In this document: positions 2,315 to 24,814 of the stretch, piece after piece
How the letters are laid out: the number at the start of each line of letters is the position of its first letter
Numbering within the stretch: the stretch's first letter is position 1
From: Actinomycetes bacterium
Lineage (GTDB): Bacteria; Actinomycetota; Thermoleophilia; RBG-16-64-13
NCBI GenBank assembly: GCA_024637035.1
Contig: JAGXFW010000008.1
Coordinates: 143,981 to 180,041, forward strand
Reading direction: 5' to 3'
Length of the DNA stretch: 36,061 bases
Translations under genes and position numbers: made by a program
The notes under the pieces: model-generated
Database searches by the model: none
The model's input: the letters and a program-made list of their open reading frames with translations, nothing else
Told to the model about the DNA's origin: nothing

Positions 2315-2326
2315 TAGGAGTCTCGC

Positions 2327-4552
2327 GTGCCTGATGAACGCACAGATCGCACGAACTACTTAGGGCTCTTGGCCTTGATGATGACGGCCGCGGATGCTGA
2401 GAATTGGTCCTATCCCTACTGGAACGTCCTCATGCTCGACGCGGCGCTGTCGGGTCTGGCGTGGGCCGAGAGGGACGGGGTGGCTCACCTAACCGCCCCC
2501 ACGGTCATGCCTACGGCCGCCTTGGTCACAAGCGGTGGGCTGCTTGCGGCCGGCCGCGACCTGGATATCGTGCAAACGTTCGTGGACGACTACGGTCGAG
2601 AGACTCTGGGCGGACCTATCGCCGGCCTCAACACGGGTGTTCCGATTGTCGACCCGGCTGTCGCTGCCACCTACGGCACTATCACACCGGGCGGCACAGG
2701 CTATGCGGGCGGGCTTTTCGAGGCCTGGTTCAGCTGGACGGACGGCAACGGGGGAGAGACTCTGCCTTCGCCGGTCGTGAGCATGGACGTGCCCTATCTT
2801 ACCGGCGGGCTTCTGTCGGACATCCAGGTCGTTCTGCCCTCACTCCCGTCTGCGGTCGGTGCCGCCGGCGCCAACGTCTACGCTCGCCACCGTTCGGGCA
2901 ATGTGGTGCTGGCCTACCGAATCGAAGTCGCTTCTGTCGACACGATCACGCTCACCGGCGTCGCGGCCGACTGCTACCGCACGCTGCCCCTAGCCAATTC
3001 CACCCTCTCCAGCCGATCGATCAATGTCACCGGCCGGGCGGCAAATGCGGGCGAGACTCCCGCACTCACCCGTTTCTACGTCCGGCCTGACGGCACGGCT
3101 TGGTCTTCCGGAGATCGGCGCCTCAAGTTGGCCGGCGTCGACGAGTGGGATCCGGATACCGTCACCTATCCGCTGCTGTACACCGGAGCCACCGGGGAGC
3201 TCGTCGCGGGGTATCCTCCATCGATATCCCAGGTGAAGGCAATCCGTCAGACCGATCTCGCCACCGAGACTGTCGGGATACTACCCAATGCTCAGATTCC
3301 CGCAGAGATAGCTCGGGATGCCGAGATTGCGGCGCTTCTTGGTGGCCCTTACGTCGTCAGCGGTCTTGTGGCTGCTGCACAGGGTGCTCCCGACATGACC
3401 GTCCAGGTTTCAACAGGGTGGGCAGTCTCTAATACGAGGTTATGGAATCCCTCAGCGGCCCCTGTGGTTACCATCGCCACGGCCCACGGGACCCTTGGTC
3501 GGATCGATCTCGTCTGCATCGACGCGAGCGGGACAATCGTCTCCTCTGGGACAGACGCGGCCTGCAAGGGGACAGCGGCGGGGTCACCTGCTGCACCAGC
3601 TGACCCGACCGGATATGTGGTCCTGGCACAAGTGACCGTACCGGCTCTTGATACGACCATAGAATCCGGGCAGATCGTCGACTACAGACCACTGCACCCC
3701 ACTCTCGTCCAGCTCGATATCGAGACAGATGCTCACGCGGCCGACGATATACATGCTTCGGCCAGCCTTGTCGAGGTGGACACCGGCACCGACAACATCA
3801 AGAAAGTCACTCCTGACGGACTGGCTGGCTCCTACGCTGGCACGAAAAGCATGAGTATCATAGCTGTCGAGCAGACCGCCGATGTGATCACCGGGGGCTC
3901 GAAGGTCGCCTTCGTCATACCTCCTGCTCTCGATGGCATGGACCTGGTCTACGCGAATGCCTGGTCGAATACGGCAGGGGTCACTTTGGCCCCTCCTGGC
4001 CCGCTCACTTCGGCCCTCGGGACTGGAGTGGGCAATGTCGACAACGGTTTGCACAAATACAAGGTCACGCTGACCAACGCGACCGGAGAGACGGAGGCAG
4101 GTACAGCCAATGCCGGGACCACGGTGGTGGATAAGGCGGTCAACGGGAAGATTGAACTGACGGCCATCCCCATCGGCGCTGCAGGTACAACGTCTCGCAA
4201 GATTTACCGGACAGTCGCCGGTGGCGCGGTGTACAAGTTGCTTGCCACGATCGCCGACAACGTGACGACCATCTACACCGACAACATCGCCGACGTCTCC
4301 CTGGGGGTCGATGCTCCGAGTAACAACACTACCGGCGTGACCACGGTCGAGGTCTACAACGTAACCCAGAGTATCGACATGCTGACCACCGGATCGACCA
4401 TCGCCACCGGGGTGAACATCGGCACCCCGGCAGACATCGACGAGTTGAATGACGACGTGGCGGGCGGGGATGTCTTGCGTATCGATGTGTCCTCAGAGAC
4501 CACCACCCCCGCGAAGGGCCTTATGGTCGTTCTCGAATTTAGGTTGCCGTAA
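2327..4552 (+). CDS. Large phage tail/adhesin protein with two Ig-like tail repeats
   Basis: This encodes 741 residues. It carries two copies of a domain common in phage baseplate and fibre proteins. One is at about residues 115-225 (FSWTDGNGGETLPSP, then ANVYARHRSGN). The second is at about 555-668 and is better preserved (YKVTLTNATGETEAGT, SRKIYRTVAGGAVYKLLATI, YTDNIADVSLG). In this family the motif order GETxAG, RKIYRT, TIADN, YTDN is diagnostic. Between them is a region with TAHGTLGRIDLVCIDASG, typical of tail proteins that carry a beta-structured receptor part. The start is ATG-like GTG at 2327 behind ATAGGAG. The stop overlaps the next ATG by one base (TAATG), so the genes are coupled. 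It is probably a baseplate or side-fibre protein. Confidence 0.65.
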   Translation: MPDERTDRTNYLGLLALMMTAADAENWSYPYWNVLMLDAALSGLAWAERDGVAHLTAPTVMPTAALVTSGGLLAAGRDLDIVQTFVDDYGRETLGGPIAGLNTGVPIVDPAVAATYGTITPGGTGYAGGLFEAWFSWTDGNGGETLPSPVVSMDVPYLTGGLLSDIQVVLPSLPSAVGAAGANVYARHRSGNVVLAYRIEVASVDTITLTGVAADCYRTLPLANSTLSSRSINVTGRAANAGETPALTRFYVRPDGTAWSSGDRRLKLAGVDEWDPDTVTYPLLYTGATGELVAGYPPSISQVKAIRQTDLATETVGILPNAQIPAEIARDAEIAALLGGPYVVSGLVAAAQGAPDMTVQVSTGWAVSNTRLWNPSAAPVVTIATAHGTLGRIDLVCIDASGTIVSSGTDAACKGTAAGSPAAPADPTGYVVLAQVTVPALDTTIESGQIVDYRPLHPTLVQLDIETDAHAADDIHASASLVEVDTGTDNIKKVTPDGLAGSYAGTKSMSIIAVEQTADVITGGSKVAFVIPPALDGMDLVYANAWSNTAGVTLAPPGPLTSALGTGVGNVDNGLHKYKVTLTNATGETEAGTANAGTTVVDKAVNGKIELTAIPIGAAGTTSRKIYRTVAGGAVYKLLATIADNVTTIYTDNIADVSLGVDAPSNNTTGVTTVEVYNVTQSIDMLTTGSTIATGVNIGTPADIDELNDDVAGGDVLRIDVSSETTTPAKGLMVVLEFRLP

Positions 4553-6189
4553 TGACCTTCTCAGCGACAGGTGGAACGAAGACCGTTGATGGTGCCTATA
4601 CGGTGCATGTATTTGCTGGGTCGGGCGTTCTCGAATGTGTGGGCGATCTTTGCGATGCCGAAGTGCTTGTTATCGGCGGTGGTGCAGGTGGTTCACAGGG
4701 TGGTGGAGGTGCCGGTGGCGTCCTGAGTGGGACCGTTCTCCTCAACGGGTCTATGCCCGTAATCGTCGGCCACGGCGGCGGGGGTAGATACGGCCACGGG
4801 GTCACCGTCGTCGATTATGGCTACCCCGGTGGAAACTCCTTCTTCGGTGGTCTGACGGCCCTGGGCGGCGGCGGAGGAGCGGGCACCGACTTCCCGAAAC
4901 CTACCTACGTTGGAGGATCGGGCGGCGGTGGCGGTGGCTCGAGCGGTGGAGCTGGCGGGGACGGGACATCTGGTCAAGGATATGCGGGGGGCAACCGGGC
5001 CGGTTACGCCGCTAGTGGCTACCCTGCCGGTGGCGGCGGCGGTGCCGGTGCAGTCGGTGGCAACGCCACGTCCAGTAGTCAGGCAGGGGCCGGTGGTACA
5101 GGAATCTCAAGCGATATCATCCTTACCGGAAGTCCTGTCGACTACGCAGGAGGTGGTGGGGGAGCGGTCGTCTTCACTGTCGGCAGTGGTGGCGCAGCCA
5201 CGCACGGCGGCGGGGCCGGTGGAAAGCAGAATACGCCTGGCACAGCGGGCACCCCCAACACAGGTGGCGGCGGAGGAGGCTCGGGCACGGGTTCGACAGG
5301 AATCGGCGGGCGCGGCGGATCGGGGATCGTGGTGGTACGCTACCTGACCACTCCCGCCCCGGTAGCGAATCCATTCTGGGCCGCGGCGGTCGGCGGATCG
5401 TCCTTCATCCAGGGTCTTTATACCGTCCATGTCTTCCCTAAATCGGGGTCTTTGGTATGCGGCTTGGGGACCATCGACGGACTCGTCCTCGTGGCCGGTG
5501 GCGGTGGTGCAGGTGGCGGATCGACCTACGGAGCGGGTGGTGGGGCCGGAGCCGTACTGGCGGGCGCGGAGACACTGATCGGGACTATGCCTGTCACGGT
5601 CGGGGCCGGGGGATTGGGAGGACCTGTCACAACCTCCAAGGGTGACCCGGGGGGCCAGAGCGTCTTCGGCACCCGTACCTGTCCAGGCGGCGGTGGTGGT
5701 GGATCATCCACCGAGCGAGGCGGCGACGGAGCCTGCGGTGGTGGCGGCGGTGGCGGTGGATACGGTATCGGTGTCGGTTCGCAGGGCTACGACGGTGGAA
5801 ACCCCGCGCACGGCTTCGCCAGTGGTGGCGGCGGTGGTGCAGGTGGGGTCGGTGGGACCACCATTGAGGCTAATGTGGGCGGTCTAGGGGGTATTGGTGT
5901 CGACTCCACGCTCCTCGGCGTCTCCATAGGATTCGGCGGCGGTGGCGGTGGTGGGGCGCAGGGCAACACTTGGGGGAGACCTCAGGGCCGGGCCTCGCAC
6001 GGCGGCGGGGATGGTCAGTCTCAACAGGCGGCAATCTCCGACCCCCAGGACGCTAGGGCATTCTCCGGCGGCGGTGGCGGTGGGAGTTGGACGACGAAGG
6101 GTAGCGGTGCCGTGGGTATCGTCATCATCAGGCACCTGACCGAGATACCGATCAGCAGTAGCTTCCTACCCCAGATCATACTCTGCTGA
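4552..6189 (+). CDS. Duplicated glycine-rich (polyglycine) tail fibre protein
   Basis: This encodes 545 residues with very high Gly content, built from two homologous halves. Half one starts at about residue 15 (YTVHVFAGSG) and half two at about residue 290 (YTVHVFPKSG). Each continues with a hydrophobic strand ending in GGGAGG (VLVIGGGAGG; VLVAGGGGAGGG) and then many short GGGG/GAGG blocks, and closes with GIVVVRYLT or GIVIIRHLT. This is the layout of phage glycine-rich domains that fold as sandwiches of polyglycine II helices, as in adhesins at fibre tips. A receptor-binding role is inferred. It is coupled to both neighbours by one-base stop/start overlaps. The third-position codon choice GGC/GGT/GGG/GGA is mixed, which limits slippage in so repetitive a gene. 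Confidence 0.75.
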   Translation: MTFSATGGTKTVDGAYTVHVFAGSGVLECVGDLCDAEVLVIGGGAGGSQGGGGAGGVLSGTVLLNGSMPVIVGHGGGGRYGHGVTVVDYGYPGGNSFFGGLTALGGGGGAGTDFPKPTYVGGSGGGGGGSSGGAGGDGTSGQGYAGGNRAGYAASGYPAGGGGGAGAVGGNATSSSQAGAGGTGISSDIILTGSPVDYAGGGGGAVVFTVGSGGAATHGGGAGGKQNTPGTAGTPNTGGGGGGSGTGSTGIGGRGGSGIVVVRYLTTPAPVANPFWAAAVGGSSFIQGLYTVHVFPKSGSLVCGLGTIDGLVLVAGGGGAGGGSTYGAGGGAGAVLAGAETLIGTMPVTVGAGGLGGPVTTSKGDPGGQSVFGTRTCPGGGGGGSSTERGGDGACGGGGGGGGYGIGVGSQGYDGGNPAHGFASGGGGGAGGVGGTTIEANVGGLGGIGVDSTLLGVSIGFGGGGGGGAQGNTWGRPQGRASHGGGDGQSQQAAISDPQDARAFSGGGGGGSWTTKGSGAVGIVIIRHLTEIPISSSFLPQIILC

Positions 6190-8786
6190 TGAGCTTCAAG
6201 GTCAAAAGATGGGCCTCTAGGGGCCAGATCAGCATCAGCGACTACGACCCCGATGTGGGCTACACCGGGACACAGGCAGTCCGCTCGTTCGTCTTCCCGA
6301 TCTCCGGAAAGTTCATCTTCCTCAACTACAAGGGACTGGACGGTGTCTACTACATCTATGACCCGGTGGGGCCGGAGTGGTCTGGTCCGTGGTTCGTGGA
6401 GTCCGGGTGGATCTGGGGCTGGTGGAGCGCGTTCTACGGCCCGCAGGTCTACTATACGAGGACAGCCGACGAGGGGATATTCGGGTACGGGGGAAGCCAG
6501 GACCAATGGTCGGGGAACCACACATGCGTCTCGATTGACAAGAACTTCGTCCTCACTCGCTACTCCGCACCGAGCTACACCGGCATGTATAATTCCACCA
6601 CGCGGTTTCACCCAGGCATGGGTATCACCGCCAACGGACTCCCGTCCAGACTTGCCTCGACGATGTACAAGGTCACATCTGGGGATCCTTGGCGAGTGGG
6701 GATCAACTCAATCGGACCTGGCGGTACTCGGGCGGTGGCCGATCGTCTCCTTGATGAATATGCCTGGACCCTGGACCCGATTGATCACCAGATATATTGG
6801 TCGGGGCAGGATGTGGGTCCATATATCTCGTGGTCGGTGAACGACGACTGCTCTAACCCAGCCGTGGAGGATCACAGCAACCTGTTCCTCTCTCCTCCAG
6901 CGGCGGGGGGCGGGTGCGCGGGTATCCCTGTCTCCGCCACGGCTACGAGGGTGTTCGTCAGCGGGGATGTGTACGGGTGGGTGGATAACAGGCTCGGGGG
7001 CCTGCCGGGTGTCATGCAGTGGGCGAAAATCAATGAGGACCCGCTCACGGAAGTCGCCATCCCCTGGACCTCGACCTGGAACCTCCGGCAGATGCAGCTG
7101 GGCGGGGGCTACGATCTCTATCAGGGCGACATCGACGGGGTCGACCACGAAGTCCTCGTCCCCATTGTGGGAGTACCGACTTACGTTCCCGGCCTCGGGC
7201 TGTTTATGGGGTCAAATATCTATGGGGAGGGTGGTGCGTCGATCACTCCGTACTTCATGGACCCGTATCAGCCGACTGGTCTCGCTCCGCGAGCAGCGAA
7301 CCTTGGGGTATCTGCAATCGGATGGGCGGGTGAGGTCGCAATTCGGCCGAACCTGAGGGTGGAAGATGTTCTCCCGGCGGACCGACTGAATCCGCAGGGG
7401 ATGGGAGGATCGGTCGTTGAGCGGGTCGATGGGAAGCATACGAATACGGGTTCGGCGATCTGCATCAAGACGAACCGCAGTTACACGAACCTCGACCTGC
7501 CCCTGACGGTGGACGTCAGTTCATACCCCGTGACCGATCCTGACTTCGTCTGGCCTGGAGCGGAGGATGGCATCGTCGAGGGTATGGGTTTCATGAGCTT
7601 CACCGAAGGCCCCGATGGAAAAATGATCTGGGGCGGAATGCCCGACCCATCATGGGGGATGTATTCTATCGTCCCTGGATGGGGTTGGCTCAACATATGG
7701 ATGGGCGCGGGGTACCTCCTGGAGGAGAACCTCGGTGGGGTGCCTACCTACTCACTCCGCGAATCCTCTCGGATCAGTGCGACCAACTCAGCGATGCAGC
7801 CGATGCCCGCCAACTACGTGGGTGCCAAGGACCAGCTCATTGGATTTCCCGACTTCCCCGGTGGGCCTATCGTCTGTTTTTGTCAGGCTTGCCCGAAGGG
7901 GATCTCGATGCCGTTCTGGAAGGCATTGGTCTGGAGGATCAGCGAGGCAAGTGTCTGGACAAAGATTCTAGACTGGCAGGACATCGGACCACCGGGACTT
8001 GGAGAGTCGAACTGGACTGTCTGGAGTATTGCCCCGATCTATGCGTGTGCGGCTCTACCCCAGGGTGGCTTCCTCATCGGGGCCACCCTGTACTTCGACC
8101 CGTGGGTGGAGGGGGAATGGGAGGACACCCCCGGCGCGAGACTCCACACCTTCATGGGGACCGGTAAGGGCTGGGTCCCGAGCAAGCCCGGGTGGGCCGG
8201 GCCGTTCGAGATCGAGAACTCCCCCCGCCTCCTCACGGCCGAGCCCCTCTCCGCCGGGAGGTCACTCTACGGCCCCGATGCCCTGCTGGTCTACGACCAC
8301 AATGGGACCTTCGTCACGCATCTCAACACGCCCGAGGTCTACCCCCCTGATGGCCGGTCTATCCTGGTCACGAAGGGAGCGGTCCCCCGCGTGATCTTCA
8401 AGACCTACAAGGAGGGCAGTTACTCGGACTACGCCGAGGGCTGGGGTGCGTGGTTTGACTACCAGGGCGATGGCGATCTGGACGTGCCGATGTTCGTCAG
8501 CTACGACCTGATGTCTCCCGGTGGGTTGATCCGCCCGGGGATGGGGAAGTTCAACGGGTTCCTCGATCTGAGCCCGCTCGGACCGAACCTAACAGACCCC
8601 GCCTCGAAGTGGGGAAAGCTCACCAGCCTCTACGGCTACTACTCCCAGACCCACCCACAGACTGAGTGGGGCGGGGCCGGGACACCTATGCTACGGTTAG
8701 GCCGAGGAGGTCGGATGATCACGCCCCTCGGCTCCCGGAACCCGAGCAGCCGGCAGGGCACGAAAGGCGTCGGCCAACGCTCCTGA
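6189..8786 (+). CDS. Large Trp/Gly/Tyr-rich tail protein, probable receptor-binding or spike protein
   Basis: This encodes 865 residues and starts in the stop codon of the polyglycine gene (TGATG). Trp, Tyr, Gly and Pro are unusually frequent (for example WSGPWFVESGWIWGWWS at about residues 63-80). Beta-strand-like segments recur with patterns such as 'GxGWVPSKPGWAGPFE' and 'SMFVSYDLMSPGG'. This suggests a beta-propeller or repeated blade fold rather than a coiled fibre. I recognise no enzyme motif or named family. It is the last large gene before the small and lysis genes, a position usually taken by the host-recognition protein, so tail spike or receptor-binding protein is the best inference. 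No ribosome site is visible, which fits translational coupling. Confidence 0.6.
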   Translation: MSFKVKRWASRGQISISDYDPDVGYTGTQAVRSFVFPISGKFIFLNYKGLDGVYYIYDPVGPEWSGPWFVESGWIWGWWSAFYGPQVYYTRTADEGIFGYGGSQDQWSGNHTCVSIDKNFVLTRYSAPSYTGMYNSTTRFHPGMGITANGLPSRLASTMYKVTSGDPWRVGINSIGPGGTRAVADRLLDEYAWTLDPIDHQIYWSGQDVGPYISWSVNDDCSNPAVEDHSNLFLSPPAAGGGCAGIPVSATATRVFVSGDVYGWVDNRLGGLPGVMQWAKINEDPLTEVAIPWTSTWNLRQMQLGGGYDLYQGDIDGVDHEVLVPIVGVPTYVPGLGLFMGSNIYGEGGASITPYFMDPYQPTGLAPRAANLGVSAIGWAGEVAIRPNLRVEDVLPADRLNPQGMGGSVVERVDGKHTNTGSAICIKTNRSYTNLDLPLTVDVSSYPVTDPDFVWPGAEDGIVEGMGFMSFTEGPDGKMIWGGMPDPSWGMYSIVPGWGWLNIWMGAGYLLEENLGGVPTYSLRESSRISATNSAMQPMPANYVGAKDQLIGFPDFPGGPIVCFCQACPKGISMPFWKALVWRISEASVWTKILDWQDIGPPGLGESNWTVWSIAPIYACAALPQGGFLIGATLYFDPWVEGEWEDTPGARLHTFMGTGKGWVPSKPGWAGPFEIENSPRLLTAEPLSAGRSLYGPDALLVYDHNGTFVTHLNTPEVYPPDGRSILVTKGAVPRVIFKTYKEGSYSDYAEGWGAWFDYQGDGDLDVPMFVSYDLMSPGGLIRPGMGKFNGFLDLSPLGPNLTDPASKWGKLTSLYGYYSQTHPQTEWGGAGTPMLRLGRGGRMITPLGSRNPSSRQGTKGVGQRS

Positions 8787-8971
8787 CTCCGCTTCTCGCA
8801 TAGGCCTCGAACACCAACCCCCTTCGACAGAGGACCTCCCAAGGACGATCGCCCTGCGCGATCTCCTGACCCTGCTCTCCCTGGCTGTGGGCGTCGTCAT
8901 CGGCATCGGCATCGGTGTGGCCGACCCCGTGGTCTAACCCCGGCGCGGGCTTCCTGGTCAGCGCCGTCACG

Positions 8972-9163
8972 ATGGGACCGTGGGACGCTCCGGACTACCC
9001 TCACCAGCCGGAACTCGTCGTCAAACTCGACATGACGGCCCCCGTGGTGTCGTGGCCGACGAGGCGTCCGTCGGGGTACTTCGGCCTGAAGCTCTACGAC
9101 GAGACTGTGAGCCTCGATCAGACCGCCGGCAGCCATGTCGCGGTGTATGCAGACTACGAGTAA
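8972..9163 (+). CDS. Small phage protein, unknown
   Basis: This encodes 63 residues from ATG 8972 (MGPWDAPDYPHQPELVVKL). A GTG at 8915 would add 19 residues that look noncoding, so the ATG is preferred, although neither start has a clear ribosome site. The protein is acidic, with alternating beta-prone parts (ELVVKLDMTAPVVSW; VAVYADYE). No family is recognised. It is followed 12 bases later by the Cys-motif gene, whose ribosome site overlaps its stop region. Confidence 0.45.
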   Translation: MGPWDAPDYPHQPELVVKLDMTAPVVSWPTRRPSGYFGLKLYDETVSLDQTAGSHVAVYADYE

Positions 9164-9175
9164 CGGAGGCATCCT

Positions 9176-9337
9176 GTGGCCGACTTCAACCACCCCATCA
9201 CCGGGGAGCCCCTGCACGAGATCGAGCTGCACACCATCCCCTGCGCAATCTGCAACCGCCCTGTGGAGGTGGCCCCGCACGTGGAGACGGTGCGCTGTCT
9301 GGAGCACTCGCCGGAGTATTGGGAGGCGACGCCGTGA
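9176..9337 (+). CDS. 53-residue protein with a Cys-x2-Cys zinc-knuckle-like motif
   Basis: This short gene starts at GTG 9176 behind GGAGG (9166-9170, spacing 5-6). It reads MADFNHPITGEPLHEIELHT and then IPCAICNRPVEVAPHV, ending with VRCLEHSPEYW. The CAIC pair followed by CLEH gives a Cys2-CysHis set that could bind zinc. Its stop overlaps the GTG start of the next gene (GTGA), so translation is probably coupled. Small zinc-knuckle proteins are common in phage late regions, but no function can be assigned. The start and ribosome site make it a real gene with good confidence. Confidence 0.7.
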   Translation: MADFNHPITGEPLHEIELHTIPCAICNRPVEVAPHVETVRCLEHSPEYWEATP

Positions 9338-9798
9338 CGGACGCTTACGACAGCAGGCCGGGGACGCTCGAACACATAGCACGCGTGGCGGAACTGATGG
9401 ACGATTTCGCTGCCTTGTTGCGGGCGCGAGCGCAAAGACACGACGCAAGCAAGCTGTCCGACCCGGAGCGAAGCGTCTTCGACGAGTACACGCCCAAGCT
9501 GAAAGACAGCACCTACGGCTCCGACGAGTATAAGGGCTACCTGGCAGGCATGGGCGAGGGACTGACTAGCCACTACGCTCACAATCGGCACCATCCCGAG
9601 CACTTCGAGAACGGCGTAGATGACATGGGGTTGGTCGACATCATTGAGATGCTGATGGACTGGAAGGCGGCTACAGAGCGACACGATAACGGAGATCTCG
9701 AACGGTCGATACGGCTCAACACAGACCGCTTCAGTTTGACTCCGCAGCTCGCGCGCATCCTGGCGAACACAGCCGCCGAGAGTGGGTGGAGCAAATGA
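9334..9798 (+). CDS. DUF5662 family phage protein
   Basis: This encodes 154 residues from GTG 9334, overlapping the previous stop. The pattern is RHDASKLSDPE near residue 35, SHYAHNRHHPEHF near 75-90 and LVDIIEMLMDWKAA at about 100. This HDxSKL ... H..N.HHPEH ... DIIEMLxDWKAA order is the signature of DUF5662, a phage and bacterial family of unknown activity. The conserved His/Asp residues suggest a metal-dependent helical-bundle (HD-like) protein, which is inference. The earlier bases in the same frame are out of register with the gene context, so the GTG at 9334 is chosen. It overlaps the endolysin start (ATGA). Confidence 0.8.
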   Translation: MTDAYDSRPGTLEHIARVAELMDDFAALLRARAQRHDASKLSDPERSVFDEYTPKLKDSTYGSDEYKGYLAGMGEGLTSHYAHNRHHPEHFENGVDDMGLVDIIEMLMDWKAATERHDNGDLERSIRLNTDRFSLTPQLARILANTAAESGWSK

Positions 9799-10643
9799 CC
9801 ACCTTCACCGACGAATCCGCGAAGCTCTTCAGCGGCCGCTTCCTCCTGCCGCACGAGATCGCGCCATGGATCGCCGCTCAACAGTTCGGCGCCATGCCTG
9901 CGAATCACACTGTGCTGCACCACACCTGGTCACCGACCTATGACCAGTGGTCGGGACGGTCCACCCTGGACGGGATCTTCGCCTACTACCGTCGCGATCG
10001 GGGTTGGCCCGCCGGGGTCGGACCGCACTTCTGGGTGGCCCCACGTGAGCGCGGTGGTCCGCTGGGTGTCTGGATCGGCACGCACCCGCGCCACGATGGG
10101 ATCCACGTCGCGGGATTCAATCACCGCTCGCTCGGCATCGAGACGGCCTGGAACGGGGACGCCGCGCCATTCACCCCCGCCGTCGAGGCCGTGCTCCGGA
10201 CGCTCGTCTTCGCGCTCTCGAGTCGTCTCGGGATCCCGCTGCGCTGGACGCACGCCAAGGCGCCAGGCCTGAGCCTGCATCGGTGGTGGGCGTCGAAGTC
10301 CTGCCCGGGCACCAAGAACACCGACGTGCGGATGGCCGCTGCGATGCTTCCGCAGAAGCCGCCGATGCCCCCGCCCCTGCCCCCACCTGTCCCGGACCCA
10401 CCCCAGGAGGACCCCATGGCCGACCCCGAAGTGCTGGCGATGCTCAAGAGCATCAACGCGAACATGGAAGCGATGGCCGCAGACCTGCGACTGATGAAGG
10501 ATCGCGTCCACCTGGGAGTACGTGAGGGCGGGTTCCAGCGGTGCATGGCGAACGCCTACGCAGCGGCGAACACGGCCCGACTCGCGGAGCTAGCAGACGA
10601 CGCCCGCCGGGCGAACGTGCCCACCGGATTCGAGCAGGTGTAG
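9795..10643 (+). CDS. Endolysin: N-acetylmuramoyl-L-alanine amidase with C-terminal helical domain
   Basis: This encodes 282 residues. Residues about 35-175 form an Amidase_2/PGRP domain that cleaves the MurNAc-L-Ala bond of peptidoglycan. The zinc ligands appear as H42 or H43 (VLHHTWSP), H162 and C170 (HRWWASKSCPG). The eight-residue gap between the last His and Cys is the same as in T7 lysozyme. A Pro-rich linker (about 188-205) joins a 75-residue Ala-rich helical C-terminal domain. ATG 9795 is preferred over GTG 9786 because GGAG sits at the right distance and the ATG overlaps the upstream stop. An AGGAGG and ATG inside the gene at 10405-10418 allow a second product. Export probably relies on the downstream holin, since no signal peptide is seen. 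Confidence 0.88.
   Translation: MTTFTDESAKLFSGRFLLPHEIAPWIAAQQFGAMPANHTVLHHTWSPTYDQWSGRSTLDGIFAYYRRDRGWPAGVGPHFWVAPRERGGPLGVWIGTHPRHDGIHVAGFNHRSLGIETAWNGDAAPFTPAVEAVLRTLVFALSSRLGIPLRWTHAKAPGLSLHRWWASKSCPGTKNTDVRMAAAMLPQKPPMPPPLPPPVPDPPQEDPMADPEVLAMLKSINANMEAMAADLRLMKDRVHLGVREGGFQRCMANAYAAANTARLAELADDARRANVPTGFEQV
10405..10418 (+). promoter_or_regulatory. Internal ribosome site and start in the endolysin gene
   Basis: A full AGGAGG (10405-10410) lies five bases before an in-frame ATG (10416-10418) that encodes Met208 of the endolysin. It is placed exactly after the proline-rich linker. Starting there would make a separate 75-residue C-terminal protein (MADPEVLAMLKSINANMEAM...). This is the strongest ribosome site in the lysis cassette apart from that of the holin. 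Several phage endolysins are known to make such free cell-wall-binding subunits from internal starts. Confidence 0.6.
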
Positions 10644-10648
10644 AGCCT

Positions 10649-10969
10649 ATGACTGCGGACGAAGCGCGGCAACTGCAAGGGCTCGCCAACAACGTGGGGG
10701 AGCTGACTGTCGCCGTGGTGGATACGCGTGTGGCCGTTGCCCGACTCGAGGAGCGGGTGGCTACGCTGTTCCACGCGGAGGCGACAAGGCTTGTCGCATG
10801 CCACGACCGCCACGAGAAGCTCGACGTGCGTATCGACGCCTACGACAACCGACAGCGCGGGCTCCTGGGGATGCAGTCCAAGCTCGCGGGCGCTGCGACC
10901 CTGGCCGGACTGATAGCTACCGGTATCGGGGCCGTCGCGGCCTTCGGGCGCATCCTGGGCGCGTGGTGA
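10649..10969 (+). CDS. Coiled-coil protein with one C-terminal membrane helix (XhlA-like, holin accessory)
   Basis: This encodes 106 residues from ATG 10649, five bases after the endolysin stop. The first 60 residues have heptad-like spacing (LANNVGELTVAVVDTRVAVARLEERVATLF) and predict a coiled coil. Residues about 78-102 (SKLAGAATLAGLIATGIGAVAAFGRIL) form one membrane helix. This layout, a cytoplasmic coiled coil plus one C-terminal helix, is that of XhlA-like lysis proteins, which work with a holin and an amidase. Its place between endolysin and holin supports this. No strong ribosome site is seen, so it may be coupled to the endolysin. Confidence 0.6.
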   Translation: MTADEARQLQGLANNVGELTVAVVDTRVAVARLEERVATLFHAEATRLVACHDRHEKLDVRIDAYDNRQRGLLGMQSKLAGAATLAGLIATGIGAVAAFGRILGAW

Positions 10970-10990
10970 TCCAAGAGAGGAGGCTGATCC

Positions 10991-11047
10991 ATCCGCTATC
11001 CCCGTTGGTCCCTGTACCGGTGGCAGAAGCGCCGCCGAAGGAGGTAA
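10991..11047 (+). CDS. Possible 18-residue cationic peptide with an ATC start
   Basis: A perfect AGGAGG (10978-10983) stands seven bases before an ATC codon at 10991 that opens a short frame ending in TAA at 11045. The peptide would be IRYPRWSLYRWQKRRRRR (18 residues, first residue Met if initiated), with nine basic residues and three Trp. No ATG, GTG or TTG is available in this frame after the preceding in-frame TGA at 10985. The ribosome site would otherwise serve no gene, since the holin has its own AGGAGG overlapping the peptide's end. Rare ATC or ATT starts exist (infC). A mutated ATG or an unused site are alternatives. Confidence 0.3.
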   Translation: MRYPRWSLYRWQKRRRRR

Positions 11048-11053
11048 CACCTG

Positions 11054-11341
11054 ATGGACAACGCGCAGGCGTACGGCCTGCTCATCGCACTCCTGCTCCC
11101 CTTCCTGGCCGGTCTGCTCACAAAGGCCACCTGGCCCTCGTGGCTCCGGTTCAGCGTGCTCGTGGCGCTCTCCGGCGCCGTAGGGGCGGGGACGCTCTAC
11201 TACTCCGGAGAGCTCGTGTTCACCGCCGACACATACCTCGTGACTGTGGCCGCGATCGTGGGGGCGTCTCAGACGGCATACTACGTGCTGATCAAGGCGA
11301 CCGGCCTCAAGCCGTGGCTGGATGGAATGCTGGTGAATTAG
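11054..11341 (+). CDS. Holin, three membrane segments
   Basis: This encodes 95 residues, starting at ATG 11054 behind AGGAGG. Three hydrophobic segments are visible: about residues 6-25 (AYGLLIALLLPFLAGLL), 32-50 (FSVLVALSGAVGAGTLYYS) and 60-82 (YLVTVAAIVGASQTAYYVLI). The C-terminus is short and polar. The size, three helices and location just after the endolysin and the coiled-coil protein make it the pore-forming holin that times lysis and lets the amidase reach the wall. The family is not assigned to a named holin class. Confidence 0.7.
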   Translation: MDNAQAYGLLIALLLPFLAGLLTKATWPSWLRFSVLVALSGAVGAGTLYYSGELVFTADTYLVTVAAIVGASQTAYYVLIKATGLKPWLDGMLVN

Positions 11342-11350
11342 CGACTGAGG

Positions 11351-11423
11351 CGCGGGTGGCAGGGCCGGGTGGCCCGGTGGGGCTCATATCCCCGCGAGCG
11401 CGGTTCGAGTCCGTGGCCCGCCA
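11351..11423 (+). tRNA. tRNA-Met (CAT), initiator-like, beside the phage lysis genes
   Basis: A 73-base cloverleaf can be folded by hand. The acceptor arms CGCGGGT (11351-11357) and GCCCGCC (11416-11422) pair except at the first position, where C1 faces C72. The D arm is CAGG/CCCG with A11 opposite C24. The anticodon stem TGGGG/CCCCG carries the loop CTCATAT with anticodon CAT at 11385-11387. The T arm CGCGG/CCGTG holds loop TTCGAGT, and the discriminator is A at 11423. An unpaired 1-72, a purine at position 11 and three consecutive G-C pairs in the anticodon stem are bacterial initiator hallmarks. No CCA is encoded. It starts 10 bases after the holin stop. The A-C mismatch could mean a phage-adapted or decaying tRNA. 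Confidence 0.8.
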
Positions 11424-11445
11424 TACCTCGCCTCCTTTTGCTCCA

Positions 11446-11470
11446 CCCAGCCTGTTCATCGCGGCCTGGG
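11446..11470 (+). terminator. Possible terminator after the tRNA
   Basis: CCCAGCC (11446-11452) can pair with GGCCTGGG (11463-11470) with one bulged base, followed by a pyrimidine-rich CGGGCTTCCTTTG. The stem is short and there is no clean T run, so it is only a plausible end of the lysis/tRNA transcript. Confidence 0.3.
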
Positions 11471-11540
11471 CGGGCTTCCTTTGCTGTTCGATCCAAGGGC
11501 GAGCGACTGTGTCGGGATGCTGGGACGGACCTTCGTGCTG

Positions 11541-11557
11541 TTTGTGGCTGCCGCAAA
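11541..11557. promoter_or_regulatory. Near-palindrome upstream of the DUF2335 cassette, possible operator
   Basis: TTTGTGGC, a central T, then GCCGCAAA form an inverted repeat with one mismatch. It lies about 50 bases before the first gene of the two-gene cassette. A weak -10-like TAGTGT follows at about 11571. It could be an operator over the cassette promoter; no regulator is known. Confidence 0.3.
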
Positions 11558-11608
11558 CATGGTAGTGTGTTGCGTGTCAGGCGGATGAGGAAGGAGCCCG
11601 CGATCATC

Positions 11609-11836
11609 ATGGATGAATCCCGCGGATATCGGCTGTATGCGCGACCCACGTATCTCCAGGGCATGGCACGGACTTTGGATCTTGGTGGTTCCGTCCAGCG
11701 AGTAATCTACAACATGAGTTCGACTCCGAATGTGGCTGACACTCGCGCGCTCGCTTCAGACTGGCGTGCGGTTGGCTCAGACTTGGCCGTGGCGATGCAG
11801 CAGGTTGAATGCTCTCACGGGAAGAATGAGTCCTAG
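11609..11836 (+). CDS. 75-residue protein, partner of DUF2335 gene
   Basis: This encodes 75 residues from ATG 11609; an ATG at 11585 in the same frame would add 8 residues. AAGGAG lies 12 bases before 11609. The protein carries YARPTYLQGMARTLDLGG, then YNMSSTPN and ADTRALASDWRAVGSDLAVAM. The pattern 'LxGMAxxLDxGG ... Y N xS ... AD xxAL xSDWxxVGxDL' looks like a conserved small family that I remember beside DUF2335 genes; its function is unknown. Its stop lies 11 bases inside the DUF2335 gene, so the two are translationally coupled. It may be a phage moron or a host gene. Confidence 0.6.
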   Translation: MDESRGYRLYARPTYLQGMARTLDLGGSVQRVIYNMSSTPNVADTRALASDWRAVGSDLAVAMQQVECSHGKNES

Positions 11837-12392
11837 CCGAAGGGAACGCAAGAAGGCGAAGAAGGCGAAGAAGGCGAGTGCTCGCAACCAGATGAAGCAC
11901 CCGGCTTCCGTCGCGGGGGGCGAAGTGGTGCCGGCCTCTTCAAGAGCTTCCGAAGAGCCGGGACAAGGTGCTCCGGGTTCGGGTGGTCATGTGCGACGCG
12001 TGTCAGCTTCCCTTCAGGCCAGTTTCAGCGGCCCGCTCCCTCACCCCGCAGTTCTGGCGGAATACGATGAGGTATTGCCCGGATGCGCGGAGCGCATTGT
12101 GTCCATGGCCGAGACCCAGTCCCGCCATCGGCAACTGCAAGAGAATCGCGTTGTGCGCGGCAACGAGATTCGTTCTAGTCTCGGGCTGATCTCCGGCTTC
12201 GCGATTGGACTTGCTGGTCTCTTCGCGACGTACAAGATAGCCGTGATCGGGGAACCTTGGGTCGCGGCCGTCGTCGGCACATTCGACATAGGTGGCCTTG
12301 TCGCTGTGTTTGTCTTGGGACGACGAGAGTCGCAGGAAGATCGAGATGCGCATGCCGACAGCGACGAGTCTGGTCAAGGGAAACTGTTCTAG
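11826..12392 (+). CDS. DUF2335 predicted membrane protein
   Basis: This encodes 188 residues from ATG 11826, overlapping the upstream stop. The start of the protein is a lysine-rich stretch made by three tandem copies of a 9-base unit (11850-11876), giving KKAKKAKKA. Residues 67-102 carry FSGPLPHPAVLAEYDEVLPG and ERIVSMAETQSRHR, the signature of DUF2335 (GPLPxPxxLxxYxxxxPGxAxRIxxMAExQxxHR). Two membrane helices follow at about 118-140 and 145-166, then an acidic C-terminus. The soluble part probably faces the cytoplasm. The family has no known function. It occurs in phages and bacterial accessory regions, which fits its place at the prophage edge. Confidence 0.8.
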   Translation: MSPSRRERKKAKKAKKASARNQMKHPASVAGGEVVPASSRASEEPGQGAPGSGGHVRRVSASLQASFSGPLPHPAVLAEYDEVLPGCAERIVSMAETQSRHRQLQENRVVRGNEIRSSLGLISGFAIGLAGLFATYKIAVIGEPWVAAVVGTFDIGGLVAVFVLGRRESQEDRDAHADSDESGQGKLF

Positions 12393-12474
12393 GAGGCGCG
12401 TATCGCGGCAGACATTCTACCTGGAGTAGGATGCTGTCAGCCGCAGGGATAGCGACTCTGACCCGACAGCCCCC

Positions 12475-12497
12475 GCAAAGAGACTACCTCTCTTTGC
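12475..12497. repeat. Perfect 9-base inverted repeat with 5-base spacer
   Basis: GCAAAGAGA (12475-12483) and TCTCTTTGC (12489-12497) are exact reverse complements around CTACC. It lies between the DUF2335 gene and the ssb remnant. It has no T run, so it is not a standard terminator. It could be an operator, a hairpin or part of a recombination site at the prophage boundary. Confidence 0.6.
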
Positions 12498-12512
12498 CCC
12501 GTTGGGCCGTGA

Positions 12513-12773
12513 ATGCCAGTCCCAATCCAGGTAGCCAGTGTCCTTCGGTTTCGCGAAGTTTGCCGTCTCATGGTGGGCAGATTCGAGAAGTCGGAGGAGG
12601 CGGACTTCTTCCGCGTCAAGGCATGGAACTCCCAGGCCGAGGCGGCGGCGGAGCATCTAGTCAAGGGCCGCCGTATCGGCGTGGAGGGAACCTTGCGGCA
12701 GGACACGTACGAGAAGGACGGCGAGGAGCGCAAGGCGGTGTCGGTGGTCGCGCGGCGCCTAGAGTACCTCTGA
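12513..12773 (+). pseudogene. Decayed single-stranded DNA-binding protein gene (ssb remnant)
   Basis: The last 65 codons encode a clear SSB C-terminal OB-fold: RFEKSEEADFFRVKAWNSQA, then AEHLVKGRRIGVEGTLRQ, DTYEKDG and VVARRLEYL. Bases 12541-12573 in a different frame read SFGFAKFAVSW, which matches the preceding SSB segment (usually AxAKFxLAVNR). The two halves are joined only by a shift near 12570, and that upstream frame is closed by TAG at 12531. The normal N-terminus (NxVxLxGxLTRDPE) cannot be found. The acidic tail of a functional SSB is also missing. The gene therefore looks like a remnant, either of the phage or of a host gene broken by integration. A separate functional ssb must lie elsewhere. 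Confidence 0.65.
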
Positions 12774-12786
12774 GCTAGGCCGTCGA

Positions 12787-12833
12787 AGCGAGCGGAAGTT
12801 GCGGGCCGGTGGCTCCGGCCCGCGTCGCTCGCT
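12787..12833 (+). terminator. Two-part 17-bp hairpin without T run
   Basis: An outer stem AGCGAGCG (12787-12794)/CGCTCGCT (12826-12833) encloses an inner stem GCGGGCCGG (12801-12809)/CCGGCCCGC (12815-12823) with loop TGGCT. It starts 13 bases after the ssb stop and lies just before the MalT-like gene, so it could terminate the upstream transcript or act as a 5' structure for the regulator. It makes an upstream GTG start at 12809 for that gene unlikely. Confidence 0.5.
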
Positions 12834-12844
12834 GGCGCCCTCCC

Positions 12845-15766
12845 ATGAAAATGGATACCTTTACGCACAGTAGGCTGGAAGGCGATCTAGTTGCGCGCGG
12901 GAGGAACGGTGCGGCTCCATTCTCACCCGACTTCGCCATCTGGGCGGACACGGAGGCCCGGGCATTGCCGGGTGACCGATCCCCCAAGCTGAGTCTGCCC
13001 CGGCAGGGGTTCAGTATTCCCCGGCCGCGCCTCCGCGCGCTCATGGCGGGCCTGGCGGGCGGCGGCGTCATCACCCTGGTCGCCGGACCGGGTTATGGCA
13101 AGACGGCGACCGTGGCCGACCTGCTCCTTTCTTGGGAACCCACCTCGGCCTATTTGGCGCTCGACGAAGACGATCGCGATCCCGAGCGTCTCCTCGTGCT
13201 CCTGGCGCAGATGGTCGATGCGGTCTGCCCCGGCGTCTGCGACCGGATCGAGCACGTACTCTCTTCAGATGAGAGACGAGAAGAGATCCGCTCTGAGGCC
13301 GAAGGTCTGCTCCTAGACGAACTTCGGAGTCAATGCTCGCATGGTGTGGCGTTGGGCTTCGACGACCTCCACTCTATCGAGGGTTCGCCGGCCGAGGCAC
13401 TCTTAGGGAGGTTCCTTGCGGCTTGTCCTTCCGAGTGGTTGGTGCTGGCCTCGTCGAGGAAGCGTCTCACGCTCGATCTCGGGTTCCGGGCCAACCAGGG
13501 TCGCATGCTCGATCTCGGAGCGCGCCGCCTTCGCCTGACTCCTACCGAAGTCGCCGTGTGGGCACGCAGTGCCTGGGGGCTTGAACTGACCCACACAGAT
13601 GCGAGAGCCGTCTGGAGGATGACCGAGGGGTGGCCCGTCGCCCTCGTGCTTGCCGGTGCCCACCTTGGGCGACGGGGCCAACTACCTAACAAGAGCCGCC
13701 TCCTCGGCTTGTCTCGCCACGGGCGTCAGCTCAGTGAGTACTTGGCGAAGGAATTCTTCTCTTCGCAGGAACCCGCTACAGCGGCGTTCTTCATGGAGGG
13801 CTTCCCGTTGGAGCGCGTGGTGTTCCCTCGTGACGGCGCGCTGTTCAGTTGTGGCGCCGATCCAGCCGAGCGGCTGTGCGAGGAACTGGTGGACGGAGGC
13901 TTCTTGGTCGCGCGGACGGGTCACCGCACGTACGCGCTCCACCGCCTGGTTCGTGATTTCGCCGAGAGCCGGGCTCGAACGACCCATCCCGACAATGCTG
14001 CGGCGCACATCGTGCGCGCCGCGTCTCACCTTGAGTCGGCGGGTGAGCCGCGTGCGGCCCTGGCGCTCTATCTCCGTTCAGGCCACCTCCATTTGGCCAC
14101 CGGAGTACTGAGAGAGCTGATGGGGTCGAGTCCCAATGTCGCCCAGATCATTGCCCGCCCGGAATGGCTTGCCATGCTTCCTCCCGAGGCCGTCGGCACT
14201 GAGCCGTGGCTCCTCACGCTACGTGCCCGCCTCCTCCAAGATAAGGGAGACTGGCGGGAGGCCGAGCCCGCCTTCGCCTCGGCCCGACGCCACTTCGAGC
14301 GGGCGGGCGAACGCTCGGGTGTCTTTCACGCCGCACAGGGGCAGGCGTTCTGTCTGTACCTCCTGGGGCGGTATGACGAATGTCTTTCGGCTCTGACTCG
14401 GGCCGAGGCCATGTGCTCGGGGGCCGAGGAGCGGGCGGAGATCAACGTCAACATCGGGAGTGTTCTGCTGGGGCTCTGCCGCTGGGACGACGCGGTCGAG
14501 CGGTTCGAACTCGCTCTCGTCGGGACGTCGCGTGAAAGGCGGCAGGCGCTTGAGACGCGGATAGCGGGGCATCGCGCGCGGCTATTCCTCCTGCGGGGTC
14601 GTCATGCGATAGCCAGGGAGTGGGCGGTCCGCGCGGTCCGCATGTCATGTGATCAGTCAGCGCTCTCCCACGCCACCATGCTGAACACCGCGGCGACGTT
14701 GGGGTACTTGAGCGGCTGCTACGAGGAGGCACGTTCGCAGGCCGAGGCGGCGCGGGCGCTGATCAATGCTCGGGGACTCGTATTTCTCGACGCTCCCTCC
14801 CGCCTCACCCTCGCCGGGATCCACATGGGCACCGGTGATTTCCGGGCGGCCGTAGATCTCCTGCGTGGCTCTCTCGAAGCGAGCGTCCAAGCTGGAGACA
14901 TAGAGGCTGCCGTCTGGGCCGAGGACATGCTCGCGCAACTGTGTCGCTGCAACCGCAATCCGCGTCGAGCGCTCGAACACCACGCGCGCGCTCTGCAGCT
15001 CATCGATGGCAACAGCCTCTCGGACGCCGATCGCACCCGAGTGGTGTGTGGTTTGGGCATGGATCTCTGTGCTGCCGGCCGCGCGGAGGAGGCGATGCCC
15101 CACTTGAAGAAGGCGGAGGAGTCCAGTCGACGTTTGAGCTTCGAGGCGTCGCTCTCCCAGGCTCAGTTCTACTTGGGTTGGCTTCACGCGTGCGCCGGGG
15201 ATGAGGGCTCCGCATCGCGGGCCTTGAGCGAGGCCCTACGGCTGGCCCAGACGAACCGCTATGTTCACTTCTACAGGTTGGAGGCGAGGGTCGCTACGCC
15301 TATCCTCGCCCTCTGCGCTCGGTTCGGCTTGGACGAGTTCATAGAAGCCGAGATACTCCCAGGGTTGCCCCGGCAACGTGTGCAGTACTACCGGATGCTT
15401 TCCGAGGGTCCCACGTATCCCACCGACGTGCCGCTCGGCACCTCGCCGCCACCGCGCATGGCGCCTGTTGCGCAGCCTGCTGTTTCGTTGAGCGATCAAG
15501 AGTCGACCCTCAATAGCGCCTTCGACCGATTGACCTCACGGGAGGTGGAGATCTTGCTCATGGTGGCCGAAGGCTTGCCGAACAAGGTGATCGCCTCGCG
15601 GCTCTACATCACCGAGAAGACCATCAAGACCCACACGAACAACATCTACCGGAAACTCGAGGTGAGCAACAGGCTACAGGCGGTACTCCGCTACCAGGAC
15701 TATCAGCGTCTGCCCGCCGGGAAGAGAGCGACCCGTCACAGCGACCGACCGCCCCGAGGGTCGTGA
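12845..15766 (+). CDS. MalT/LAL-type transcription regulator (STAND ATPase, TPR, LuxR HTH)
   Basis: This encodes 973 residues from ATG 12845; no ribosome site is obvious and the ATG at 12851 is an alternative. Residues about 81-88 give the Walker A motif GPGYGKTA and about 170 the Walker B (LGFDDLHS). A long helical region rich in TPR-like repeats follows. The C-terminal 60 residues are a LuxR helix-turn-helix (LTSREVEILLMVAEGLPNK, then ITEKTIKTHTNNIYRKL). MalT-like regulators bind a ligand on the TPR sensor, use ATP to oligomerise and switch on promoters. The ligand here is unknown. Its nearest neighbours are a broken ssb upstream and a lipoprotein on the other strand downstream, so no target is suggested. 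A hairpin overlaps its stop codon. Confidence 0.85.
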   Translation: MKMDTFTHSRLEGDLVARGRNGAAPFSPDFAIWADTEARALPGDRSPKLSLPRQGFSIPRPRLRALMAGLAGGGVITLVAGPGYGKTATVADLLLSWEPTSAYLALDEDDRDPERLLVLLAQMVDAVCPGVCDRIEHVLSSDERREEIRSEAEGLLLDELRSQCSHGVALGFDDLHSIEGSPAEALLGRFLAACPSEWLVLASSRKRLTLDLGFRANQGRMLDLGARRLRLTPTEVAVWARSAWGLELTHTDARAVWRMTEGWPVALVLAGAHLGRRGQLPNKSRLLGLSRHGRQLSEYLAKEFFSSQEPATAAFFMEGFPLERVVFPRDGALFSCGADPAERLCEELVDGGFLVARTGHRTYALHRLVRDFAESRARTTHPDNAAAHIVRAASHLESAGEPRAALALYLRSGHLHLATGVLRELMGSSPNVAQIIARPEWLAMLPPEAVGTEPWLLTLRARLLQDKGDWREAEPAFASARRHFERAGERSGVFHAAQGQAFCLYLLGRYDECLSALTRAEAMCSGAEERAEINVNIGSVLLGLCRWDDAVERFELALVGTSRERRQALETRIAGHRARLFLLRGRHAIAREWAVRAVRMSCDQSALSHATMLNTAATLGYLSGCYEEARSQAEAARALINARGLVFLDAPSRLTLAGIHMGTGDFRAAVDLLRGSLEASVQAGDIEAAVWAEDMLAQLCRCNRNPRRALEHHARALQLIDGNSLSDADRTRVVCGLGMDLCAAGRAEEAMPHLKKAEESSRRLSFEASLSQAQFYLGWLHACAGDEGSASRALSEALRLAQTNRYVHFYRLEARVATPILALCARFGLDEFIEAEILPGLPRQRVQYYRMLSEGPTYPTDVPLGTSPPPRMAPVAQPAVSLSDQESTLNSAFDRLTSREVEILLMVAEGLPNKVIASRLYITEKTIKTHTNNIYRKLEVSNRLQAVLRYQDYQRLPAGKRATRHSDRPPRGS

Positions 15767-15777
15767 GGCGGTCGGTC
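15743..15777. terminator. Perfect 11-bp hairpin overlapping the regulator stop
   Basis: GACCGACCGCC (15743-15753) and GGCGGTCGGTC (15767-15777) are exact reverse complements with a 13-base loop that holds the TGA stop. There is no T run. Being symmetric, it can also end transcription coming from the opposite strand. Confidence 0.6.
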
Positions 15778-15872
15778 TAGGGAGGGATGTCGGTGCGCGA
15801 GAGTCCTGATGGGACAGGAAGAGGGACGGTGTCTCTCTTTGAGCGGTTTCTAACGCGCTATACCTTGCCAGA

Positions 15873-15901
15873 ATTCTACCAAACAGGCCGTATATCGTCA
15901 A
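15873..15901 (-). promoter_or_regulatory. Strong sigma-70 type promoter on - strand, antisense to the regulator 3' end
   Basis: On the - strand TTGACG (15901-15896) and TAGAAT (15878-15873) are separated by exactly 17 bases, and the -10 is preceded by TGG (extended -10). The predicted start is near 15866. No convincing protein frame follows; the transcript would run into the 3' end of the MalT-like gene and meet the hairpin at 15777-15743 after about 125 bases. The bases 15767-15946 otherwise hold no gene that I can support. Confidence 0.6.
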
Positions 15902-15946
15902 CGGTCATCGGGCTTTGGTGGGCGTGGGAGGTCATAAGTCTGGTGC

Positions 15947-16867
15947 CTATTGACCCACCGTCAGCGGGATCTCGGTGACGTTGACCATCGAGCCGTCCTT
16001 GGCGGAGTACTCGAAGGTGATCAGACTGATCGACGTGCCGGGTTTCGCGGTGAACGGCACGGTGACGTCCCACGTCCCGCGGGTGCCCGTTCCCGATGTG
16101 GCGGTGACGAACTGATCCACCAGGGTGACGCCGTCCGCATCCACGATCTGCAGTTGCGAGGTGGCTTCGAAGGTGTTGGAACTGCCGTGCACGCGGAGCG
16201 GGCTCGTGACCACGTCGCCGATAGTGGGTGACTCCACGAGGATCGCCGGAGTGTGGTCCTCGTAGTCGAGGCGGCCAACCGGGTGCTCGAGCAAGAACCC
16301 CTCGCCACCGAACACGGTGATGGCCTTGCCGTCGAGCTTGAACTGCACCGTCTCGACACTGGGGAACTGAGTGAGTGTGTATACGACCTGAGCCAGGCGC
16401 AGCCCCATCGAGAGGCTGCCGCCCCCTGATTCGTACTCACGCGAGAGGTCTACTGTGGCGGTGGGGCCGTCGATGTTCACGCCGAGAAGGAGCGTGCCGT
16501 CCGGGATGGCGGTGAAGATGCCGAGCTGCGTTTCCTCGGGGTTGGGGCCGGCCACGAGAGCCTGCACGGCCGCGGCGGCGGTCTGCTTGGTGTAGGGGAT
16601 CGTGCGATGTATGGCCTGCATCTTCTCGTTCAGTACGAAGTAGACCGAGATCTGCATGGTCTCGCCCGAGAGCGTGGTCGACGCGGTGTCGGGAGCGGTC
16701 GTAGTGGTGGTCTCACCGTTCTGGGCGACGGTGGTGGCCGTGGTCGAGACCGGCCCGCCGTCCTGCACGGTCTGGCTGTAGCCGCACCCCGCAAGCGCGA
16801 GTAGCGCCCCGAACACTACGGCCAGGGTGATGATCGAGACGGTGTGTGATGTGGGTGTGGATCGCAT
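15947..16867 (-). CDS. LpqB-like lipoprotein with GerMN and Gmad2 domains
   Basis: This encodes 306 residues from ATG 16867, behind a strong AAAGGAGG. A lipoprotein signal (SIITLAVVFGALLALAGC) puts the lipidated Cys at residue 28. A Thr-rich linker follows (TTTTTAPDTASTT). A GerMN domain covers about 72-190 (VYFVLNEKMQAIHRT, TAAAAVQALVAGPNPEE, ATVDLSREY). A Gmad2 Ig-like domain covers about 205-303 (ILVESPTIGDVVTSPLRV). GerMN lipoproteins occur in spore germination and, in actinobacteria, as LpqB, encoded next to the MtrAB two-component system. Here it follows such a pair on the same strand with an 84-base gap. It is shorter than LpqB and has Gmad2 rather than Gmad1, so it is LpqB-like rather than LpqB itself. 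It probably acts outside the membrane and modulates the kinase. Confidence 0.8.
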   Translation of the reverse strand: MRSTPTSHTVSIITLAVVFGALLALAGCGYSQTVQDGGPVSTTATTVAQNGETTTTTAPDTASTTLSGETMQISVYFVLNEKMQAIHRTIPYTKQTAAAAVQALVAGPNPEETQLGIFTAIPDGTLLLGVNIDGPTATVDLSREYESGGGSLSMGLRLAQVVYTLTQFPSVETVQFKLDGKAITVFGGEGFLLEHPVGRLDYEDHTPAILVESPTIGDVVTSPLRVHGSSNTFEATSQLQIVDADGVTLVDQFVTATSGTGTRGTWDVTVPFTAKPGTSISLITFEYSAKDGSMVNVTEIPLTVGQ

Positions 16868-24708: not shown

Positions 24709-24778
24709 CCTGACGGTCGGCCGGCGGCCTTGGCTCAGGAGGCGGTCCGCGGCTTGGGAAGGCGTTCCCGGTCAGCAG

Positions 24779-24814
24779 GCGTCCGGTGCTGGCGCAGACG
24801 TGGGCACCGGACGC
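24779..24814. terminator. Bidirectional hairpin between convergent genes
   Basis: GCGTCCGGTGC (24779-24789) and GCACCGGACGC (24804-24814) are exact reverse complements with a 14-base loop. It lies between the stop of the + strand zinc-ribbon gene and the stop of the - strand DUF3160 gene, where a shared terminator is expected. Confidence 0.7.

Follow-up and report, generated by a model that had tools for sequence, protein, structure and literature searches.

The window, by which we mean the whole 36,061-nucleotide stretch of DNA analysed here, holds a MalT-like regulator gene and a GerMN/Gmad2 lipoprotein-like gene on opposite strands, and the region where they face each other contains a promoter, a C-rich stretch and a hairpin, from which we predict a small RNA (Table 1). 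Positions 1-12800, adjoining the MalT-like gene, are occupied by a run of phage tail, lysis and ssb-like genes (assigned by eye), perhaps the end of a prophage.

Table 1. Features at the predicted RNA locus, in window coordinates
Feature	Position	Strand	Basis
MalT-like LuxR-family regulator (TPR, GerE), 985 aa, convergent	12809..15766	+	
Predicted small RNA, ~124 nt	15743..15866	-	Spacing in 6/6 genomes, fold, no shared ORF
Conserved hairpin GACCGACCGCC/GGCGGTCGGTC, terminator-like without U-tract	15743..15777	-	Inverted repeat, covariation
Loop motif GACCCUC	15756..15762	-	Same in 6/6 genomes
Conserved C-rich stretch CAUCCCUCCCU, predicted unpaired in the window; putative pairing region	15779..15789	-	
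-10 box TAGAAT, TGG directly 5' (extended -10)	15873..15878	-	Same in G001
-35 box TTGACG	15896..15901	-	Sequence and promoter scan; same in G001
GerMN/Gmad2 lipoprotein-like gene, upstream, same strand as the RNA	15947..16867	-	

Promoter, predicted RNA and hairpin

The minus-strand promoter TTGACG-17-TAGAAT spans positions 15901 to 15873, and the near-consensus extended promoter that the initial annotation described, with its 17-base spacer and TGG-TAGAAT element, is found exactly where it was placed. It is the single promoter-like site called by the promoter scan between 13000 and 18000 (0.4 expected), and one of three sites with at least 10 of 12 promoter matches on the two strands of the window. 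With the start taken as 7 bases after the -10 box and the end as the foot of the hairpin, the predicted RNA would overlap the final 24 nt of the MalT-like ORF, the stop codon of which lies within the hairpin loop. Its predicted fold beats 200 of 200 shuffles (z -3.35).

The arms of the hairpin (15743-15753 and 15767-15777) pair over 11 bp without a mismatch around a 13-nt loop, which bears out its earlier description as perfect and symmetric, and such structures are rare in the window, where we found two distinct perfect inverted repeats with arms of at least 10 and loops of 3-15. The other of these, at 24778-24815, is a perfect 12-bp repeat between two convergent ORFs, the longest such repeat in the window and likely a terminator. 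A search of the 3.57-Mb genome with the hairpin pattern finds this one site only, even when up to 3 mismatches are allowed.

The suggestion that this hairpin could end the RNA after about 125 bases holds up in part: the length fits the anatomy of the locus, but in the window the stem lacks a U-tract on both strands, the terminator scan gave no call there, and the GC hairpin followed by a U-tract that defines an intrinsic terminator is absent from this site. Of the five relatives introduced below, two (G012 and G005) have a terminator-like call at the hairpin and three (G001, G010 and G014) have none, leaving the 3' end uncertain, and since a second hairpin follows in G010 and G014, this end may also differ between genomes. 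Our reading is that the RNA probably ends at or near the conserved GC hairpin.

The view that no credible protein frame is present is likewise upheld, as no ATG, GTG or TTG frame of at least 8 aa begins inside the RNA in the window, nor does one in G010. The start of a 75-aa ORF on the minus strand coincides with the -35 box and precedes that of the predicted RNA; neither this ORF nor a 63-aa plus-strand ORF has a Pfam match. A very short peptide gene might be seen in G005, where a 34-residue frame directly follows GGAGGG and stays open to the end of the segment examined; however, no reading frame is common to the six genomes, and we consider the chance of such a gene close to negligible.

Conservation of the unit and its neighbours

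Six of 18 genomes of the family, in four genera, carry the unit of promoter, C-rich core and covarying hairpin with its GACCCUC loop: that of the window (G000), G001 of the same genus, and G005, G010, G012 and G014, which represent three other genera (all sequences come from MAGs). A BLAST search with a 211-nt window query matched 5 of 61 genomes, its own included. The match in G001 is 87% over 201 nt, whereas in the three other genera it is limited to 45-49 nt comprising the C-rich stretch and the hairpin (E 2.3e-12, 2.1e-8 and 4.0e-5), downstream of the GerMN orthologue in every case; the element of G014 was added after inspection of its GerMN locus. The core alignment of the six has 35 invariant columns, with GACCCTC in 6/6. 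Neither CCUCCUCCC, which lies upstream of the C-rich stretch, nor CCTCCTCCC occurs in G000 or G001, and each is found in G012, G005, G010 and G014.

The conserved hairpin comprises 13 pairs, with 98.7% of the alignment cells paired, and sliding its partner cuts this pairing to 22-57%. Over six rows that include two close pairs, its covariation score is matched by 1 of 500 shuffles; three pairs are changed on both sides, a number that 72 of 500 shuffles reach. For the 5' part of the RNA, the consensus structure consists only of a pairing between G-rich and C-rich segments, which is broken in the window's genus, and the fold of the G005 RNA is unremarkable (13 of 200 shuffles are equally good).

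Each of the six genomes has its own promoter with 10-11 of 12 matches, and its position is nearly constant, with 85-97 nt from the end of the -10 box to the start of the core and 124-137 nt to the end of the core, giving predicted RNAs of about 123-136 nt. Shuffled upstream regions equal this strength and position in 0-2 of 2000 trials each, and scans of the five relatives called the RNA promoter every time (0.1-0.2 sites expected per region), with one additional, weaker promoter-like site in the G005 region. Among family members that lack the core, none of 10 stretches following GerMN (eight of 600 nt, two of about 200 nt, namely 200 and 205) has a promoter-like site on that strand; this control leaves out G006 and G013, and its G007 stretch follows the best GerMN match rather than the copy adjoining the MalT-like gene of that genome.

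The two genomes of the window's genus were also compared. Between G000 and G001, the promoter is identical at 21 of 29 positions and all 8 changes fall within the 17-base spacer, leaving both hexamers unchanged; the chance that all 8 changes would spare the 12 hexamer positions is 0.6%. The core is identical at 62 of 63 positions and the 5' part of the RNA at 55 of 61, compared with identities of 87.7% in GerMN, 83.0% across 14100-15766 of the MalT-like gene and 68.9% in the gap that precedes the promoter. Unchanged hexamers and a conserved core set against drifting surroundings are, to judge from the alignments, the pattern of a transcribed, constrained RNA gene.

An alternative is that the hairpin is only a two-way terminator between convergent genes, and that the promoter is coincidental. 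The hairpin is indeed strong, symmetric and suitably placed for this, and several family members without the RNA have other hairpins at that place (by eye). However, a terminator would need neither the C-rich flank, nor the GACCCUC loop, nor a promoter at a near-fixed distance in all six genomes, nor hexamers that resist change, and the window hairpin has no U-tract to begin with, making this explanation distinctly unlikely in our judgement.

On the strand of the RNA, a GerMN orthologue precedes it in all six genomes (in G010 and G014 across a gap of about 440 nt that, by eye, may contain a small ORF), and GerMN, RNA and a convergent MalT-like gene stand together in five of the six. This arrangement, and the overlap with the MalT-like ORF in the window and in G001, would be compatible with an antisense RNA acting in cis, one that pairs with the 3' end of the MalT-like mRNA and so controls it, as the initial annotation had suggested. 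The overlap is, however, confined to these two genomes of one genus, whereas the MalT-like ORF stops about 80 (G012), 150 (G010) and 105 nt (G014) beyond the core. G005 keeps both RNA and promoter with no MalT-like homologue at E<=1e-60, a threshold at which the regulator is found in 16 of 18 family genomes and missed in G005 and G013 (G013 is 64% complete, and a more distant homologue in G005 is possible). Conversely, in seven genomes (G002, G003, G004, G009, G011, G015 and G017) the convergent pair is present but a strong RNA match is missing. As the RNA occurs without a MalT-like match and the convergent pair without the RNA, its function is seemingly independent of that neighbour. When the C-rich stretch was paired with each of the two possible start regions of the MalT-like gene, the energies were -18.3 and -8.7 kcal/mol, neither of which reaches the 5% background level of -21.8. 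We therefore reject antisense control of the MalT-like gene on the overlap pattern and on G005, and hold it to be highly improbable.

With promoter, spacing, core and hairpin all kept across four genera, the small RNA that had been proposed from one sequence gains firm footing, and we consider it very probable that an independent RNA gene lies between GerMN and the convergent MalT-like gene.

A model built from the six genomes (R1) scores all of them at E<=1e-15, which proves nothing new since these are its own building rows, and within the 18 family genomes the best match after these six has E 3.3e-4. R1 returned no further strong member in 299 genomes of the class (weak matches in 17 genomes, E 5e-6 to 0.008) or in 396 genomes of the phylum (weak matches in 6 genomes, best 2.0e-4; one genome is common to both sets). 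By eye, with one locus viewed per genome, these weak matches are other hairpins or coding DNA; at loci in G275 (L052), G006 (L059) and G246 (L058) a comparable C-rich stretch falls within or immediately behind coding DNA, and we left these out of the count. Scanning the GTDB collection with a pattern gave 5 loci, the same five relatives (the window's own genome was possibly left out), and a scan of viral contigs gave none. In a GerMN tree of 18 rows, from which G006 and G013 are missing, the genomes with the RNA group together (a value this low arose in 0 of 500 shuffles), but the distribution of the RNA needs two changes on a partly open tree, such that a single gain is unsupported.

Two observations on other loci are worth recording. 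At L070 of the window's genome (G000:C33:451227-454279), a tRNA-Pyl with a CUA anticodon (1450-1521) lies close to a PYLIS_2/mtbB pyrrolysine insertion element (2870-2969), as it does at L075 in G001 (1450-1521 and 2868-2967); UAG is probably translated as pyrrolysine in this organism, at least at this locus. Elsewhere in the class, four genomes of a different family (f4) share a TCGTCTCCCGACGA mini-hairpin that is conserved throughout and precedes a GC hairpin whose loop is C-rich (L046 and L056 near 1501-1564, L050 at 504-562 and L057 at 1064-1126). One weak alpha-r14 match lies among these loci, which could possibly represent a second C-rich RNA family.

Comparison with known RNA families

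An Rfam scan of the whole window at gathering thresholds gave no match. Permissive scans of the window stretch and the five relatives returned 7 sub-threshold matches (best E 0.063), of which 5 are small RNA families at the RNA locus (alpha-r14 twice, sX13, and Hrs13 twice). The alpha-r14 model (RF02344) has no match at E<=5 in window stretch 15600-16050, and its full-length matches in G014 (28.2 bits, E 0.063) and G010 (23.2 bits, E 0.79) are sub-threshold, the better one standing against a gathering score of 58.8. Likewise, Rfam 6C has no match at E<=5 in the window stretch or the five relatives. 6C has two C-run loops, and the Cuckoo/CcsR RNAs are characterised by a C-rich motif.

The RNAs of the alpha-r14/NfeR1 group are short trans-encoded RNAs of Alphaproteobacteria defined by a C-rich anti-Shine-Dalgarno motif, CCUCCUCCC, in unpaired regions (PMC10746234, PMC3927594). 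The same 9-base motif lies in the core of G012, G005, G010 and G014. Unlike the alpha-r14 RNAs, however, which have three hairpins with the motif unpaired in each, the RNA described here has one conserved hairpin, lacks the motif in G000 and G001, and belongs to a different phylum; Hfq was not found in the RNA-bearing genomes. Neither the bit scores above nor the hairpin count supports membership in alpha-r14.

For the mycobacterial RNA 6C/B11, PMC10470900 describes C-rich loops that repress an mRNA with six Gs in its 5' UTR, in a lineage with no known Hfq or ProQ. Here too the host is an actinomycetote and the pairing candidates are C-rich, although predicted from sequence in our case, and the loop is GACCCUC as opposed to the two C-run loops of 6C. 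The Cuckoo/CcsR RNAs resemble our RNA as C-rich RNAs adjoining a conserved protein gene. According to PMC10253847, however, they arise by processing of a transcript that also carries a DUF1127 gene, whereas ours is one RNA that has its own promoter and lies next to a GerMN gene.

The RNA has the sequence-level marks of a C-rich trans-acting small RNA, namely its own promoter, short length, noncoding character and a conserved C-rich motif, and looks like a new family of this already known kind. We think that it would work like alpha-r14 or 6C/B11 while being a member of neither.

Possible mode of action and significance

Our main reading, to which we assign a probability of roughly 0.6, is that an independent small RNA gene with a sigma-70-type promoter produces an RNA of ~124 nt, the C-rich parts of which block Shine-Dalgarno regions in trans without Hfq. 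A housekeeping-type promoter (sigma-70 group) would drive the short RNA, the CAUCCCUCCCU stretch (joined by CCUCCUCCC in the three other genera) and the GACCCUC loop would serve as pairing regions, and these C-rich parts would most likely bind the G-rich Shine-Dalgarno regions of several mRNAs in trans, blocking translation independently of Hfq. For the anti-Shine-Dalgarno mechanism taken by itself, we judge the odds to be about even.

Hfq was found in none of the six RNA-bearing genomes at E<=0.001, one of these genomes being 78% complete, with a search whose control was positive in 5 of 14. When the six genomes are pooled, sites perfectly complementary to the C-rich stretch (AGGGAGGGAKG) show no enrichment relative to the reversed control, with site and control counts of 4/0 (G000), 4/1 (G001), 9/14 (G005), 5/4 (G010), 6/5 (G012) and 4/4 (G014), where five of the six site counts include the RNA locus itself; the window's genus alone stands above the control, on very small numbers. 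Among 22 start regions of the window, a single one lies narrowly beyond the 5% background level (-22.0 vs -21.8), which is no more than expected by chance. We note also that the C-rich stretches of G012, G005, G010 and G014 have a potential pairing partner in a 5' G-rich segment, and may thus be structural or masked.

The lack of overall enrichment of exact mRNA complements, along with the repetition of short C-rich motifs in the RNA, would suit a small RNA, expressed from its own promoter, in which the conserved C-rich parts are contacted by a protein, for titration or as a scaffold, and not by mRNAs. Against this, no candidate binding protein was found in a search that covered Hfq, and unpaired C-rich motifs of known small RNAs are held to act by base-pairing (PMC10470900, PMC10746234). 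We regard protein binding as unlikely, and retain base-pairing with mRNAs as the preferred reading.

Individual complement sites offer leads for targets. In both G010 and G014 (L105 and L094, at 1501), a TadC-like gene (named by eye) carries an exact complement of this stretch where its Shine-Dalgarno sequence would be, making this gene a candidate target. Further complements at Shine-Dalgarno positions precede a ferredoxin-like gene in G001 and an oxidoreductase gene in G005, named by eye and to be taken as leads only.

Through comparison between genomes, a single promoter-plus-hairpin reading of raw sequence was both raised to a conserved RNA gene and corrected. In the library searched, no paper combined Thermoleophilia and small RNAs, and wider searches gave nothing on this group among the matches listed. 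It is tentatively conceivable, with chances that we put slightly short of even, that the RNA founds a new family of anti-Shine-Dalgarno small RNAs, acting independently of Hfq within a single uncultured family of the Actinomycetota, and is an independent counterpart of alpha-r14 and 6C/B11. On this view it would be held under strong constraint in the space separating a sporulation-domain lipoprotein gene from the convergent MalT-like regulator. A conserved C-rich RNA in these bacteria would suggest that anti-Shine-Dalgarno small RNAs arose more than once and, if the proposed mechanism is true, that they can act without Hfq outside the mycobacteria.
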